Both the position numbers and the translations under genes were made by a program. Positions 3,261-40,102 of a stretch of 64,000 bases of DNA are shown here, in pieces. Source of the DNA: Amycolatopsis sp. QT-25. GTDB taxonomy: Bacteria; Actinomycetota; Actinomycetes; Mycobacteriales; Pseudonocardiaceae. The stretch covers positions 496,001 to 560,000 of the forward strand of contig NZ_CP120210.1 in NCBI RefSeq assembly GCF_029369745.1, written 5' to 3'. The notes under the pieces are model-generated. The model made no database searches and was not told the origin of the DNA. It worked only from the letters and a program-made list of their open reading frames with translations. How positions within the stretch are numbered: the first letter of the stretch is position 1; each line of letters starts with the position of its first letter.

Positions 3261-3529
3261 CACGCGAGTTCGCCGCCCGATCACGCGAGTTACGCCCTCG
3301 ATCACGCGAGTTCGCCGCCCGATCACGTGAGTGTCGTGTCCAAGCACGCGAGTTACGTCTCTGATCACGCGAGTTCCGTACCGAATCACGCGAGCCTGCT
3401 GTGCGGAACCGGTGAACTCGCGTGATCAGGGGGCGAACTCACGTGCTCAAAGGCGTAACTCGCGTGCTTGAAGGGCGAACTCGCGTGATTAGAGGCGTAA
3501 CTCGCGTGATCAGGGGGCGAACTCGCGTG
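3261..3529. repeat. Inverted pair of 21-bp phased repeat arrays between convergent genes
   Basis: Seven copies of CACGCGAGTT (small variants) begin at 3261, 3282, 3303, 3324, 3345, 3366 and 3387, an exact 21-bp period. After a spacer of about 25 bp, six copies of the inverse AACTCGCGTG follow, their CGTG ending at 3424, 3445, 3466, 3487, 3508 and 3529, again exactly 21 bp apart. The 11-bp linkers also resemble each other across the two arms. A transcript could form a long imperfect hairpin. It fills the gap between two convergent genes, so a bidirectional terminator is the simplest reading. Confidence 0.9.
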
Positions 3530-3543
3530 ATCGGGCGGCGCAC

Positions 3544-4374
3544 TCAGCCGACCGACTCCTGCCACCAGCCCAAGACCTCGTCGGCCACTCCCGGCGCCGC
3601 CACCAGCAGCGCGTCGACCGGCAGGGCCGTGTCTTCCCCGTGCCGGTCCAGCACCACGGCGCCGGCCTCGATGGCCAGCGCGACCGAGCCGGCGACGTCC
3701 CATTCGCGGTAGCTGTGCAGCACCGCCGCGGCCGCGTGTCCCAGTGCGACCTGCGCGATGGCCAGCGCGGCCGAGCCGAGCACCCGGACCCCGGCGTGCG
3801 CGGCGGCGGCCCGTTCGATGAACTGGCCCATCCCCGGCCAGACACCCTTGCGCGTGAGTTCCGTGCAGACGATCGCCCCGGCCGTCCCGCGACGGTCGGT
3901 CAGCGTGATCGGCTTGCCGTTCGCTCTGGCCCCGCGGCCGCGCGCGGCGGCGTAGATCTGGGCGCGGTACGGGTCCGCGACCACGCCCACCACCGGCCCC
4001 GAAGCGTCGATCAGGGCGAGGCTGTACGCGCACCAGGGGACACCGGCGACGTAGTTGGCGGTGCCGTCGACCGGGTCGACCACCCAGCGGTATTCGGCGA
4101 CGTCGGCCCCGTGGTCGGCACCGAATTCGCCACCGACCACGGGGATGCCGGGGAATTCCGCGGTCAGCACCCGGCGGGTGTGACGTTCGAGGATCCGGTC
4201 CGTGTCGGTGACCCAGTCGAAGGGCGAATCCCGCGGATCGGGTTGGGCGCCGCGGCCCGCGGTCGCGGTGATCACGTCGGTCGCGTCGTTGGCCAGCCGC
4301 CCGGCCACTTCGAGGGCCCTCGACACCAGCCCTGGTTCGACGGGCTGAGGCGGCCTTGACGACAGGAGGGTCAT
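3544..4374 (-). CDS. Inositol monophosphatase family phosphatase
   Basis: Magnesium-dependent sugar-phosphate phosphatase, 276 residues. The two signature motifs are present: VDPVDGTANY at about 99-108 and EWDVAG at 224-229, with a further metal ligand in GGEFG near 83. ATG 4374 follows GGAGGG on the minus strand. It converges on the DUF3592 gene across the repeat array and is divergent from the mannosyltransferase. The family includes inositol-1-phosphatase, histidinol-phosphatase (HisN) and PAP phosphatase (CysQ), and sequence alone does not separate these. Next to a mannosyltransferase, a role in inositol supply for phosphatidylinositol glycans is possible but unproven. Confidence 0.85.
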   Translation of the reverse strand: MTLLSSRPPQPVEPGLVSRALEVAGRLANDATDVITATAGRGAQPDPRDSPFDWVTDTDRILERHTRRVLTAEFPGIPVVGGEFGADHGADVAEYRWVVDPVDGTANYVAGVPWCAYSLALIDASGPVVGVVADPYRAQIYAAARGRGARANGKPITLTDRRGTAGAIVCTELTRKGVWPGMGQFIERAAAAHAGVRVLGSAALAIAQVALGHAAAAVLHSYREWDVAGSVALAIEAGAVVLDRHGEDTALPVDALLVAAPGVADEVLGWWQESVG

Positions 4375-9543: not shown

Positions 9544-10092
9544 ATGGGCCTCGAAGAAAAACTCCCCAACGGCATCCTGCTCGCCAGCCTCGAAGGCCTG
9601 GTCAACTGGGCACGCAAGAACTCGATGTGGCCCGCCACCTTCGGTCTCGCCTGCTGCGCGATCGAGATGATGACCGTCGGCGGTTCCCGCTACGACATCG
9701 CGCGTTTCGGCATGGAGCGCTTCAGCGCGACGCCGCGCCAGGCGGATCTGATGATCGTCGCCGGCCGTGTCACGCAGAAGATGGCGCCGGTGCTCCGCCA
9801 GATCTACGACCAGATGGCCGAGCCGAAGTGGGTGCTGGCGATGGGCGTCTGCGCCTCGTCCGGCGGGATGTTCAACAACTACGCCGTGGTGCAGGGCGTC
9901 GACCACATCGTCCCGGTCGACATGTACCTCCCCGGCTGCCCGCCGCGCCCCGAGATGCTGCTCGACGCGATCTTGAAACTGCACGCCAAGATCCAGGACG
10001 AGCCGATCAACGCCCGCCGGGCCGCGATCCGGGCCGCCAGCGGTGAGCGCACCGAGCTGATCGCCTCCTCGATCAAGTACGCGAAGAAGTGA
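9544..10092 (+). CDS. nuoB: NADH-quinone oxidoreductase subunit B
   Basis: Peripheral-arm subunit that binds the terminal Fe-S cluster N2, which passes electrons to menaquinone. The four ligands are visible: adjacent C37-C38 in [11 protein letters not shown]103 in [10 protein letters not shown] and C132 in YLPGCPPRP. 182 residues, normal length. Its last 4 bp overlap the GTG of nuoC, a sign of coupled translation. Confidence 0.97.
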
Positions 10093-10862
10093 GCGACGTG
10101 CCTGAAGAAACCCCCGAAGAAACCCCCGAACCGGGCGGCGAGCAGTCCAGTGCCGACCGGTCCGAAGGCGGCCTCGAACCGCGGGGCACTCGCCCGGCCG
10201 AACCGGTCGTCACCGGTAGAGAGCGCCAGGGCATGTTCGGCGTACGCGGCAGCGGTGACACCTCCGGTTACGGCGGCGTCCGCCTCCCCGCGTACAGCCC
10301 GCCCCCGGCGGAGCGACCGTACGGCGGTTGGTTCGACGAGTTCGCCGACGAGTTCTACGCGGCCTTGGCGGACAACAAGGTCCCGGCGAACGCGATCCAG
10401 CAGACCACGGTCGACCGCGGCGAGATCACCTTCTACGTCGCCCGCGAGCACCTCGTCGAGATCGCCAAGGTCCTGCGCGACGACACCGGTCTCCGCTTCG
10501 AACTGCTCAGCTCCGTCTCCGGCGTGGACTACGGCGTCGACGTCCCGCAGCGGCTGCACTCGGTCTACCACTTCACGTCGATGACCTACCGCCGCCGCAT
10601 CCGGCTCGAGGTCACCCTCGACATCGAAGACGCGCACGTCCCGTCCCTGGTCGGGGTCTACCCGACGGCGGACTGGCAGGAGCGGGAGACCTGGGACATG
10701 TTCGGCATCGTCTACGACGGTCACCCGGCGCTGACCCGCATCCTCATGCCGGACGACTGGGACGGCCACCCCCAGCGCAAGGACTACCCGCTCGGCGGGA
10801 TCCCGGTCGAATACAAGGGCGCGGAGATCCCGCCGCCGGACCAGCGGAGGTCGTACTCGTGA
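10089..10862 (+). CDS. nuoC: NADH-quinone oxidoreductase subunit C
   Basis: 30-kDa subunit of the peripheral arm, 257 residues. The first 75 residues are an acidic, Pro-rich, probably disordered extension with a doubled EETPEETPE, followed by the conserved domain with [30 protein letters not shown] and [11 protein letters not shown]. The N-terminal extension is common in actinobacterial NuoC. GTG 10089 overlaps the nuoB stop. The stop at 10860-10862 overlaps a GTG with its own ribosome site, the first of two micro-ORFs that separate nuoC from nuoD. Confidence 0.96.
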
Positions 10863-10985
10863 GCAACTTCGTGCGGGCACGGACATCCCGGCCATGTCGA
10901 CACCAGCGGAGGTCGCACTCGTGAGCAACTTCCTGCGGGCACGGATTTCCCGGCCATGTCGACACCAGCGGAGGTCGCACTCGTG
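10842..10985 (+). repeat. 62-bp tandem duplication of the nuoC-nuoD junction
   Basis: The block CAGCGGAGGTCG...CTCGTGAGC starts at 10842, 10904 and 10966, an exact 62-bp period, giving two full units plus a third ribosome site and start. The two full units differ at only a few positions (for example 10871 and the ACA/ATT codon) and have no indels. Each unit repeats GGAGGT, a 7-nt spacer and GTG. Confidence 0.95.
10859..10924 (+). CDS. Micro-ORF 1 between nuoC and nuoD (21 residues)
   Basis: GTG 10859 has a GGAGGT ribosome site 7 nt upstream and overlaps the nuoC stop as GTGA. It reads [10 protein letters not shown], then a basic tail with RPCRHQRR, and stops at 10924, where TGA again overlaps the next GTG. 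Length, basic tail and frame are kept in the second copy. It arose by duplication of the junction; whether the peptide matters or only carries ribosomes forward is unknown. Confidence 0.55.
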
Positions 10986-10986
10986 A
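10921..10986 (+). CDS. Micro-ORF 2 between nuoC and nuoD (21 residues)
   Basis: Second copy of the unit: GTG 10921 with GGAGGT, reading [10 protein letters not shown] and the same basic tail, stopping at 10986 with TGA overlapping the nuoD GTG. It differs from copy 1 at two residues (Val to Leu, Thr to Ile). Translation could pass nuoC, micro-ORF 1, micro-ORF 2, nuoD through three successive GTGA overlaps. Confidence 0.55.
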
Positions 10987-12362
10987 GCACCGAAAACCTC
11001 TCCGACGTCACGACAGGCACCGCCACCGGCCCCCAAGGCGCGGACAGCACCGACGACGTCGACTACGCCGACTCCCGCGAGACCACCGAAGGTCGCGTCT
11101 ACACCGTTTCCGGCGGTGACTGGGAAGACCTCATCGAGGACTCCCGCCACGACGAGCGCATGGTCATCAACATGGGCCCGCAGCATCCGTCGACGCACGG
11201 CGTGCTCCGGCTCGTGCTGGAGATGGAGGGCGAGACCGTCACCCAGCTCCGCTCGGTCATCGGCTATCTGCACACCGGGATCGAGAAGAACTGCGAGTAC
11301 CGCACGTGGACCCAGGGCGTCACGTTCGTGACGCGCATGGACTACCTCGCGCCGCTGTCGACCGAGATGGCGTACTGCCTCGGTGTGGAGAAGCTGCTCG
11401 GCATCCAGGCCCCGCGCCGTGCCGAGCTGCTGCGCGTGATGCTGCTGGAGATCAACCGCATCGGCTCGCATCTGGTCTACATCGCCACCGGCGGGATGGA
11501 ACTCGGTGCCACCACGGCGATGACGCTCGGCTTCCGTGAGCGCGAAGAGGTCCTTCACCTGCTGGAGCACCTCACCGGTCTGCGGATGAACCACGCGTTC
11601 ATCCGCCCCGGCGGCCTCGCCCAGGACATGCCGGACGACTACCAAGAGGTCGTCAGCGCGTTCGTCAAGACGATGGACGAGCGGCTTCCCTTGTACGACA
11701 AGCTCTTCACCGGTCAGCCGATCTGGCGCAACCGGCTCAAGGGCGTCGGGTACCTGCCGGTCGACGCCTGCCTAGCGCTCGGTGTCACCGGCCCGGTGCT
11801 GCGCAGCGCCGGTCTCCCGTGGGACATGCGCAAGACCGAGCCGTACTCCCGCTACGACGAGTTCGAGTTCGACATCCCGACCTCGACCGACGCGGACTGC
11901 TGGGCGCGCTACCTGCTGCGCGTCGAGGAGATGCATCAGAGCCTGCGGATCATCAAGCAGTGCCTGAAGAAGCTCGAGCCGGGCCCGGTCATGGTCGAGG
12001 ACAAGAAGGTCGCCTGGCCGGCACAGCTCTCGATCGGCAGCGACGGCATGGGCAACTCGCTCGAGCACGTCCGCAAGATCATGGGCCAGTCGATGGAATC
12101 GCTGATCCATCACTTCAAGCTGGTCACCGAGGGCTTCAAGGTCCCGCCGGGCCAGACCTACACGTCGGTGGAATCGCCGCGCGGCGAACTCGGCGTGCAC
12201 CTGGTCTCCGACGGCGGCACCCGGCCGCTGCGGGTCCACGTGCGCGAACCGAGTTTCGTGAACCTGCAATCGATGCCCGCGATGGCCGAAGGCGGCCTGG
12301 TGGCGGACGTGATCGCCGCCATCGCCTCGATCGACCCCGTCATGGGGGGAGTGGACCGTTGA
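10983..12362 (+). CDS. nuoD: NADH-quinone oxidoreductase subunit D
   Basis: 49-kDa subunit that forms the quinone pocket with NuoB, 459 residues. Conserved features include [21 protein letters not shown], where the His-Pro-Ser-Thr-His loop lines the quinone site, and the C-terminal [31 protein letters not shown] 10983 has GGAGGT 7 nt upstream. ATG 10956 is in frame and would add nine residues derived from the duplicated junction, but has a poor ribosome site. The stop overlaps the TTG of nuoE. Confidence 0.96.
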
Positions 12363-38751: not shown

Positions 38752-39504
38752 TCATCGGCCGGTGATGGCGGCGCGCAGCTCGGTGAGCCGTTCGGCGAAC
38801 GCGGGCCCGGTGAGCGACGCGATCTGCGGCTCGATCTCGGCGTCGACGGCGGCCGGATGGTCGGTCAATGACGCGGTGTGCCGAAGCGTGCGCTTCGTCG
38901 CCAAAAGGATGTCGCGGGGAGCTTCGACGGCGGGTTTCGCCAGTTCACGGGCGGCCTCGACCAGATCTCCGTCGACGAGCCGGAGCGCTAGTCCGCATTC
39001 CACAGCCGCTTCGGCACCGACGACCTCCCCGAAGAGGGTCATTGCCGCGGCCTTCTGCGGACCGACGAGCCGCTGGATCATCCACGTCATCCCGCCGCCG
39101 GGATGGATGCCGAGATCGAGAAATCTGGCCACGAACTTCGCCTTCGGTCCCACGATGCGGACGTCCGCGGCGAGCGCGAGGTTCAGACCGGCCCCCACGG
39201 CGGCACCGCCGACCGCGGCGATCGTCGGCAGGGAACACCGCGCAACCGAGAGGAATCCGGCGTAAATGGCGCGGAGGCCGTCCTCCCTGGCCTCGGCGAG
39301 GGTGTCCAGGTCCGCGCCCGCGCAGAAGGCCGGAGGTGCGCCGGTGACGACCAAGGCGTGGACGCTTTCGTCGGCTTCGGCGCGCGAAACGGCCTCGGCC
39401 AGCCGCGCGGACAGGTCGAGGGTCAGGGCGTTGCGGGTCGCGGGCGCGTCGATGGTGAGCACGGCGACGCCACCGTCGTGGCTGGAGCGGATTCGATCGG
39501 TCAC
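38752..39504 (-). CDS. Enoyl-CoA hydratase/isomerase family protein
   Basis: Crotonase-fold protein, 250 residues. Oxyanion-hole elements are PAFCAGADLDTLAEA and IAAVGGAAVGAGLNLALAADVRI. The region FLDLGIHPGGGMTWMIQRLVG takes the place of the usual catalytic-glutamate block, and I do not see the standard second glutamate in register, so hydratase activity is not assured. Substrate unknown. Its start faces the 44-bp tandem repeat that separates it from the lrp gene on the same strand. Confidence 0.88.
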   Translation of the reverse strand: MTDRIRSSHDGGVAVLTIDAPATRNALTLDLSARLAEAVSRAEADESVHALVVTGAPPAFCAGADLDTLAEAREDGLRAIYAGFLSVARCSLPTIAAVGGAAVGAGLNLALAADVRIVGPKAKFVARFLDLGIHPGGGMTWMIQRLVGPQKAAAMTLFGEVVGAEAAVECGLALRLVDGDLVEAARELAKPAVEAPRDILLATKRTLRHTASLTDHPAAVDAEIEPQIASLTGPAFAERLTELRAAITGR

Positions 39505-39517
39505 GGGACCGAGGGTG

Positions 39518-39652
39518 TCATGCCTCGGGGGTCGGCGGGTGTTCCGCCAACCAGGAAAGGTTCATGCCTCGGGGGTCGGCGGGCGTTCCACCAACCAGGA
39601 AAGGTTCATGCCTCGGGGGTCGGCGGGCGTTCCACCAATCAGGAAAGGTTCA
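39518..39652. repeat. 44-bp tandem repeat of the 3' end of the lrp gene
   Basis: TCATGCCTCGGGGGTCGG begins at 39518, 39562, 39606 and 39650, an exact 44-bp period. The copy at 39650 is the real end of the downstream-read lrp gene (minus strand: ERPPTPEA and stop). The other three repeat the same coding end with its TGA past the true stop, nearly identical to each other. The period is not a multiple of 3. Confidence 0.95.
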
Positions 39653-40102
39653 TGCCTCGGGGGTCGGCGGGCGTTCCAACAGCCGGGAAAGAACGACGGT
39701 GGAGACCGTGCGGTCGACGATCTCCAATCCGCGCAGCCGTTCCAGCGCCGTCTCCAGATGGTGGATGTCCGACGCGCGGAGGTGGACGATCGCGTCGGCC
39801 GCGCCGGACACCGTGTAGGCGGCGACGACCTCGGGCAACGGCTCCAGCCGGGCGCGGATGCGGGCCGGGGTGATGTTGCCGTTGCAGGTCATCTCGACGA
39901 ACGCCTCCGTGCCCCAGCCCAGTGCCTCAGGGTCCACGACCGCGGTGAAACCGCGCAGGACCCCGGTTTCGAGCAGTCTGTCGACCCTTCGTTTCACCGC
40001 GGGCGCGGACAGGCCGACGACCTTGCCGATGTCGGCGTAGCTGGACCTCGCGTTGGCCATCAGACAGGAAACGATTCGCTGGTCGATGGTGTTCACACGC
40101 AA
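39650..40102 (-). CDS. Lrp/AsnC-family transcriptional regulator
   Basis: 150 residues. N-terminal helix-turn-helix (IDQRIVSCLMANARSSYADIGKVVGLSAPAVKRRVDRLLE split at about residues 6-46) and C-terminal RAM ligand-binding domain (VVAAYTVSGAADAIVHLRAS, IHHLETALERLRGL). TTG 40102. Divergent from a DDAH-like gene with a 67-bp gap, the same pair as Rv2324 / Rv2323c in Mycobacterium tuberculosis, so it probably senses an amino acid such as arginine or ornithine and controls that gene. Its 3' end has been tandemly copied. Confidence 0.93.
   Translation of the reverse strand: MRVNTIDQRIVSCLMANARSSYADIGKVVGLSAPAVKRRVDRLLETGVLRGFTAVVDPEALGWGTEAFVEMTCNGNITPARIRARLEPLPEVVAAYTVSGAADAIVHLRASDIHHLETALERLRGLEIVDRTVSTVVLSRLLERPPTPEA

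Follow-up and report, generated by a model that had tools for sequence, protein, structure and literature searches.

Micro-ORFs between nuoC and nuoD of an Amycolatopsis as probable translational relays derived from a duplicated gene-junction cassette

We suggest that the two micro-ORFs lying between nuoC and nuoD in Amycolatopsis sp. QT-25, a soil actinobacterium, are probably translational relays, left behind when a gene-junction cassette was duplicated in tandem. The window, that is, the whole stretch of 64,000 nucleotides that was analysed, contains the cassette and an unbroken chain of stop-start overlaps, and in relatives this chain persists across inserts that differ in sequence and length. 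The duplicated cassette would consist of the 3′ tail of nuoC, which carries a Shine-Dalgarno-like site, and the opening bases of nuoD; after terminating on nuoC, a ribosome would restart at the GTG that overlaps its stop, translate micro-ORF 1, and do the same again at micro-ORF 2 and at nuoD. The elements of the junction are these:

10089-10862, + strand: nuoC, 257 aa (NCBIfam NF005856, E 7.8e-114)
10817-10832, + strand: GGGCGCGGAGATCCCG, a segment of the nuoC tail that recurs altered within the insert
10840-10989, + strand: 62-bp tandem repeat, 2.4 copies (TRF score 272)
10840-10901, + strand: repeat copy 1, with the nuoC end, GGAGGT, the GTGA start and the core
10846-10851, + strand: GGAGGT, Shine-Dalgarno-like, for micro-ORF 1
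10859-10924, + strand: micro-ORF 1, GTG start, 21 aa plus stop, 4-nt overlap with the nuoC stop
10902-10963, + strand: repeat copy 2, 94% identical to copy 1
10908-10913, + strand: GGAGGT for micro-ORF 2
10921-10986, + strand: micro-ORF 2, GTG start, 21 aa plus stop
10964-10989, + strand: partial copy 3, the junction alone, running into nuoD
10970-10975, + strand: GGAGGT for nuoD, within micro-ORF 2
10983-12362, + strand: nuoD from GTG 10983, 459 aa (NCBIfam NF004739, E 2.6e-172)

The initial annotation had described a junction occurring three times at 62-bp spacing, and this is borne out, the third copy being partial. Each repeat does carry GGAGGT, a GTG start and a 22-codon frame (21 residues and a stop), and GTGA links at 10859, 10921 and 10983 run from nuoC through micro-ORF 1 and micro-ORF 2, which overlaps its neighbours on both sides by 4 nt, into nuoD. 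The tail of nuoC contains the Shine-Dalgarno-like site for the next ORF, and GGAGG ends 8 nt upstream of the start codon at each of the three starts. The four ORFs occupy three frames, as had been claimed, with the qualification that nuoC and nuoD share one. Copies 1 and 2 differ by substitutions only (four, at copy 1 positions 10854, 10871, 10884 and 10885, with no indels). The statement that two of these change residues is right as to codons, V5L and T9I being altered, while three base differences fall inside the micro-ORFs; both changed codons are nonsynonymous with no synonymous change, and the fourth difference, at 10854, lies in the nuoC tail. The correspondence between tail and insert in the window runs from GGGCGCGGAGATCCCG to CAGCGGAGG.

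The GTG at 10983 is the counterpart of the nuoD start at the single junction of relatives that have no insert. The mechanical ORF list begins nuoD at an in-frame ATG, 10956, which lies 27 nt upstream of the likely GTG and arose inside the repeat, and automatic annotation choosing this longer form may hide the array. NuoB to NuoF were identified by NCBIfam models, and the best named match of nuoC, with records very near the window possibly excluded, is from A. keratiniphila (94% identity). Two NuoD models above cut-off begin at residues 58 and 60; the poor conservation of the NuoD N-terminus may account for the tolerance of inserts at this border. Synonymous sites in the last 40 codons of nuoC (10743-10862) are more conserved than those in the preceding 50. 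The mean frequency of the top codon there is 0.95-0.97 versus 0.83-0.86 before in 80 genomes of the genus, a trend that is weaker in 118 other genomes (0.79-0.86 versus 0.71-0.79), and all 80 genus genomes have AGG as the Arg codon forming the site.

Within the genus, a direct NTGA overlap joins nuoC to nuoD in 71 out of 80 genomes, including one (L069) with an N-terminal extension, and micro-ORFs occur in the other nine; 70 out of 80 have neither insert nor extension. The closest relatives have the single overlap that had been called the usual state. Homologues of the window insert were found in six out of 80 genomes, counting the window itself (L001 to L006), with two units each in the window (L001) and in A. 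rubida (L002). The homologous units measure 62, 62, 65, 68, 68, 68 and 71 nt, all 2 mod 3, and there is one of 70 nt in A. rubida. This last unit is the one case among relatives of the frame-breaking difference that had been named as counter-evidence, and by hand reading its stop still overlaps the following start, by 11 nt; the two units of this genome are likewise a hand reading, the survey script having taken a different path beginning 6 nt past the nuoC stop. The nearest relative by tree, L064, is 97% identical in the region and has no insert.

Across the family, we read 198 Pseudonocardiaceae nuoC/nuoD junctions, accepting links from -14 to +10 nt: 153 are direct NTGA overlaps, one is TGATG (L201) and 44 hold one to four micro-ORFs. 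The latter make up 9 out of 80 junctions in Amycolatopsis, 19 out of 74 in other genera (a non-random sample, taken from the best nuoD matches listed, with a nuoD match in 382 out of 386 genomes) and 16 out of 44 in further Pseudonocardia (genus g30, of which 50 out of 60 matching genomes were included, five already among the 74). One junction, L210 (G321), was excluded; it otherwise resembles the direct L217, and its nuoC tail is shifted, apparently because one base is missing next to a run of C, possibly through a sequencing error. None of the 44 insert junctions is unlinked within -14 to +10 nt, and 39 have NTGA at every link, the other five being L221 (with a TGATG link), the group L017, L158 and L162 (with an 11-nt overlap), and L002. 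Arrays consist of four units in L200, three in L224, three tiny ones in L197 and two each in the window, L002 and L242, and the relaying ORFs span 6-74 aa. The reading of the junction as coupled, which the initial annotation had offered, is therefore supported, since insert-bearing junctions retain the chain and the nearest relatives have one NTGA overlap.

The lengths of the inserts point the same way. Start-to-start distance is 2 mod 3 in 35 out of the 39 scored junctions with one micro-ORF, and in 23 out of 27 distinct combinations of type and length, against an expected one third (p = 4e-8, with types grouped by hand and the tree ignored). When inserts were shuffled at fixed length, 26 out of 44 still gave strict chains compared with 39 out of 44 observed, so that most of the signal resides in length modulo 3. 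A Shine-Dalgarno match precedes nuoD in 43 out of 44 insert genomes and 152 out of 153 direct ones, and it precedes 37 out of 53 micro-ORF starts; the background is 503 out of 4304 NTG triplets in coding DNA.

No one sequence is common to the inserts, which comprise altered copies of the nuoC tail, another type seen repeatedly, and singletons. Type A duplicates the 3′ tail of nuoC and has four extra bases, by which its first half is shifted to another frame; its peptides, ARRSRLC.DQRRSYS-like, are patchy in some Amycolatopsis and Pseudonocardia (tail alignment by eye), and the 15-mer GGGCGCGGAAATCCC is present both in nuoC and in the insert of the relatives G022, G046 and G073. Type B peptides (..PKYVFPLEA. 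or.DVLFP.EAA., grouped by eye) occur in Prauserella, A. acidicola, genus g6 and Pseudonocardia, and several inserts resemble neither type. A type B consensus pattern with up to three mismatches, applied to 12 genomes, matched nuoC/nuoD in G164, G261 and G264, with one weak match elsewhere in each of G000 and G264; because it failed to pick up the related inserts in G067, G119 and G258, this search for dispersal is insensitive. On a "quick" tree of the same locus, built from the flanking nuo genes, the type A insert requires five changes, a number equally low in 62 out of 500 shuffles, and the alternative is one gain with 20 losses. The shared four extra nucleotides and a CTCTGC-like core favour common ancestry of type A; lateral exchange is possible. 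Loss of the DNA between two direct repeats, each about 25 bp long, would recreate the single junction scarlessly and may be the reason for the patchy distribution.

Micro-ORFs are also found at other borders, less often than at nuoC/nuoD. At seven other overlapping nuo junctions (D/E, E/F, F/G, G/H, I/J, J/K and L/M) in 20 genomes they number 5 out of 140 versus 44 out of 198 (Fisher p = 5e-7), where the control set is small, non-random (17 out of the 20 genomes were picked for their nuoC/nuoD micro-ORFs) and different from the 198-junction sample. The A/B, B/C, H/I and K/L junctions were excluded from this count, B/C giving one trivial VR* frame. In the control script six nuoC/nuoD junctions came out as unlinked; four of these were read as micro-ORF junctions in the family survey and one in the survey beyond the family, and the sixth (G400) is truly unlinked. 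At nuoB/nuoC in the same 80 genus genomes, nuoC starts -1 to +9 nt from the nuoB stop in all 80, with NTGA in 35, and no long insert was found there. The nuoL/nuoM border of L394 (G264) has two chained micro-ORFs with the common segment ITVPSAGARSR.

Outside the family, 40 junctions from 71 genomes were taken, of which 38 were readable. The tally, which also counts the Pseudonocardiaceae L343 and L344 and the excluded L210, is 27 direct, one direct but loose, eight micro, two micro but loose, three with none and two unreadable. Plain gaps of 11 nt (L345) and 13 nt (L359) occur, L346 and L376 are loosely linked, and in L370 the gap is bridged solely by a trivial MT* frame. In another family, L378 has what looks like an independent duplication of the nuoC tail, ending PPPDERRARK*.

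A second array of the same design lies elsewhere in the window, copying the tail of an AsnC-type gene:

38752-39504, - strand: enoyl-CoA hydratase/isomerase gene, downstream of the second array (Pfam PF00378)
39501-39653, - strand: second array, copying the AsnC-type gene tail, 44-bp repeats
39650-40102, - strand: AsnC/Lrp-type regulator gene, upstream of the second array (Pfam PF13404, PF01037)

Its 44-bp repeats (39518-39691, - strand), whose length is again 2 mod 3, copy the tail LLERPPTPEA* and hold the frames MNLS*, LVERPPTPEA* (from TTG), MNLSWLVERPPTPEA*, MNLSWLAEHPPTPEA* and MTPSVP*. Copy 1 ends early, at a TGA with a TTG immediately after it; the chain uses ATGA and GTGA, and MTPSVP* is joined by GTGA to the enoyl-CoA hydratase gene. 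We compared 30 loci, the window included, out of 80 genomes matched. Thirteen loci of the close clade show its usual state, a single micro-ORF of 6 residues (VTPSxx* or similar) flanked by NTGA links; there is one extra unit in each of L422 and L423, and there are two in L421 and three in the window. In total, 23 loci have micro-ORFs (including loose links and the long, doubtful ORFs of L441 and L446), three are direct and four are unlinked, L431 and L437 by a one-base length change and L447 and L448 with long spacers. Repeats of another kind, 21/42-bp arrays around a CGCGAGTT/AACTCGCG motif, occupy 3261-3545 of the window, in one orientation at 3261-3394 and in the opposite one at 3414-3545.

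On our preferred reading, duplications would persist at nuoC/nuoD when stop-start coupling is kept, and the micro-ORFs would act as ribosome relays. We infer that ribosomes translate them and that nuoD depends on this hand-over; inserts that break the chain would be eliminated by purifying selection for the coupling, not for the peptides. Reporter studies in E. coli and H. volcanii (PMC10666635) found reinitiation to be strongly dependent on the distance between stop and start, and short overlaps are described there as enriched among subunits of complexes; overlaps of -4 and -1 are the commonest distances according to that paper and to PMC6728339. In PMC10666635, Huber and colleagues saw reinitiation nearly abolished by gaps of about 20 nt in native E. 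coli and H. volcanii pairs; with a 14-nt gap two E. coli pairs retained anything between <20% and 60%, a variable outcome, and a 38-nt gap brought two pairs down by 80-90% and abolished a third. On a strict view of distance, the 124-nt insert would uncouple nuoD unless bridged, and the micro-ORFs would be the bridge. This rule is contested, for a study quoted in PMC10666635 reports coupling across 150-850 nt, and whether a terminating ribosome crosses gaps or needs an overlapping start is still argued, with contrasting models set out in that paper; this makes us slightly less confident of the relay. The gaps of L345, L359 and L370, the unlinked junctions of the second locus and the 70-nt unit of A. 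rubida fit the relay reading poorly. So do the pN/pS values of 0.40-0.54 within Amycolatopsis and the scattered persistence of type A, which would take 20 losses if gained once.

It would be tempting to see the array as a dosage device, in which each step passes only part of the ribosomes and the number of micro-ORFs, set by selection, fixes NuoD relative to NuoC. Tandem copies do recur, from two to four per junction, and copy number at the second locus varies among close relatives; however, NuoC and NuoD are expected at 1:1 in complex I and the nearest relative lacks the insert altogether, and we find this idea doubtful. Slightly harder to accept is a neutral duplication after which nuoD initiates alone from the copied Shine-Dalgarno site, the chain being accidental. 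Duplicating the junction brings site and start along, shuffled inserts of the given length often stay open, and the match before each nuoD makes independent initiation possible. Yet step lengths of 2 mod 3 are far above one third, and inserts other than copies of the nuoC tail are chained as well, which makes this account unlikely.

The initial annotation had also raised the possibility that the short basic peptides are active. Related type A peptides (ARRSRLC.DQRRSYS-like) in Amycolatopsis and Pseudonocardia share, by eye, the 4-nt difference from the nuoC tail, and within Amycolatopsis pN/pS is 0.40 or 0.54, depending on the stretch chosen, below the other two frames, which leaves room for weak constraint. 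Over both genera, however, the core value is 0.74 or 1.01 by stretch chosen, no lower than another frame (0.70 or 0.85). The two copies in the window differ by nonsynonymous changes alone, 74 out of 80 genus genomes do not have the peptide, and unrelated peptides, varying widely between genomes, stand at the same place; Pfam gave no match to either window peptide. A functional peptide is poorly supported and, in our view, quite improbable. An RNA structure or processing element between the two genes is more improbable still. A GTCGGG/CCCGAC-like hairpin is common to the Amycolatopsis units, and some of its changes are paired (alifold -10.3, seven units), but folding z-scores of 17 units span -0.84 to +1.41 and the consensus is about 0 when both genera are pooled; there was no Rfam match at E <= 1 and no promoter-like or terminator-like site in 10600-11200. 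Neither folding nor the Rfam and site searches supported a structured RNA, an Rfam family, a promoter or a terminator.

MIRUs, the mycobacterial interspersed repetitive units, measure about 40-100 bp, and the 62-bp unit in 2.4 copies is likewise a short tandem unit. Tandem copies, an internal ORF and coupling by 4-nt overlaps all fit the description of MIRUs in a 2025 review (PMC12548453), which gives them, with short ribosome-delivering ORFs, as precedents. Compared by this description, MIRUs are mobile and dispersed and sit at start codons, whereas our unit derives from the adjacent nuoC tail, and unrelated insert types at nuoC/nuoD keep the same architecture. A search of its own genome gave no second significant copy of the insert (other matches cover 15-37 bases, the best with E 0.037 over 21), and plasmid and phage collections gave no match at E <= 1e-5; a mobile or dispersed repeat was rejected, and insertion of a MIRU-type element is most improbable. 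Among the matches listed, the core 15-mer gave 60 in 47 out of 80 genomes, and the contexts of 30 of these were a few recurring unrelated sequences, nuoC or the insert itself.

Enterobacteria carry a NuoCD fusion, which likewise ties the production of NuoC and NuoD; here the genes are separate, the subunit C/D model NF008728 matches below its cut-off, and translation would have to read through the nuoC stop to give a fusion. In the window the frame is open from 10863 into nuoD, but only because two 62-bp copies restore it, and we set readthrough fusion aside, treating the open frame as a by-product. Closer to the relay are termination-reinitiation pairs, in which the same NTGA and TGATG links join subunit genes of one complex (PMC6728339, PMC10666635); these pairs overlap directly, while one to four ORFs relay at nuoC/nuoD. 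As in other coupled chains, a -4 overlap stands at each link in the window, and NuoC and NuoD are subunits of one complex, a feature that is enriched in such chains and not required. Short upstream ORFs and bicistronic designs also hand the ribosome to the next gene (PMC12548453), and a micro-ORF of the array, like them, delivers a ribosome and also contains the next Shine-Dalgarno-like site; unlike bicistronic design, the array is natural, tandem, located within an operon and apparently derived from junction duplication. A literature search, with most subscription journals outside its coverage, listed no paper on micro-ORFs at nuoC/nuoD.

The nuoC/nuoD junction can be regarded as a repeated natural insertion experiment, in which the surviving inserts in the family are bridged by micro-ORFs, and the arrays offer a natural series of one, two, three and four copies for measuring the hand-over per step. 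There is also a warning for annotation, as a very short ORF at an operon border may be a relay rather than a gene for a peptide. We further speculate, with little confidence, that tandem cassettes form an evolvable relay of variable copy number, in which slippage would add or remove micro-ORFs at gene borders of this family and shift the subunit ratio stepwise while the overlap rule protects the operon. If so, this genome would provide two independent examples, the nuoC/nuoD array and the asnC/enoyl-CoA hydratase array.
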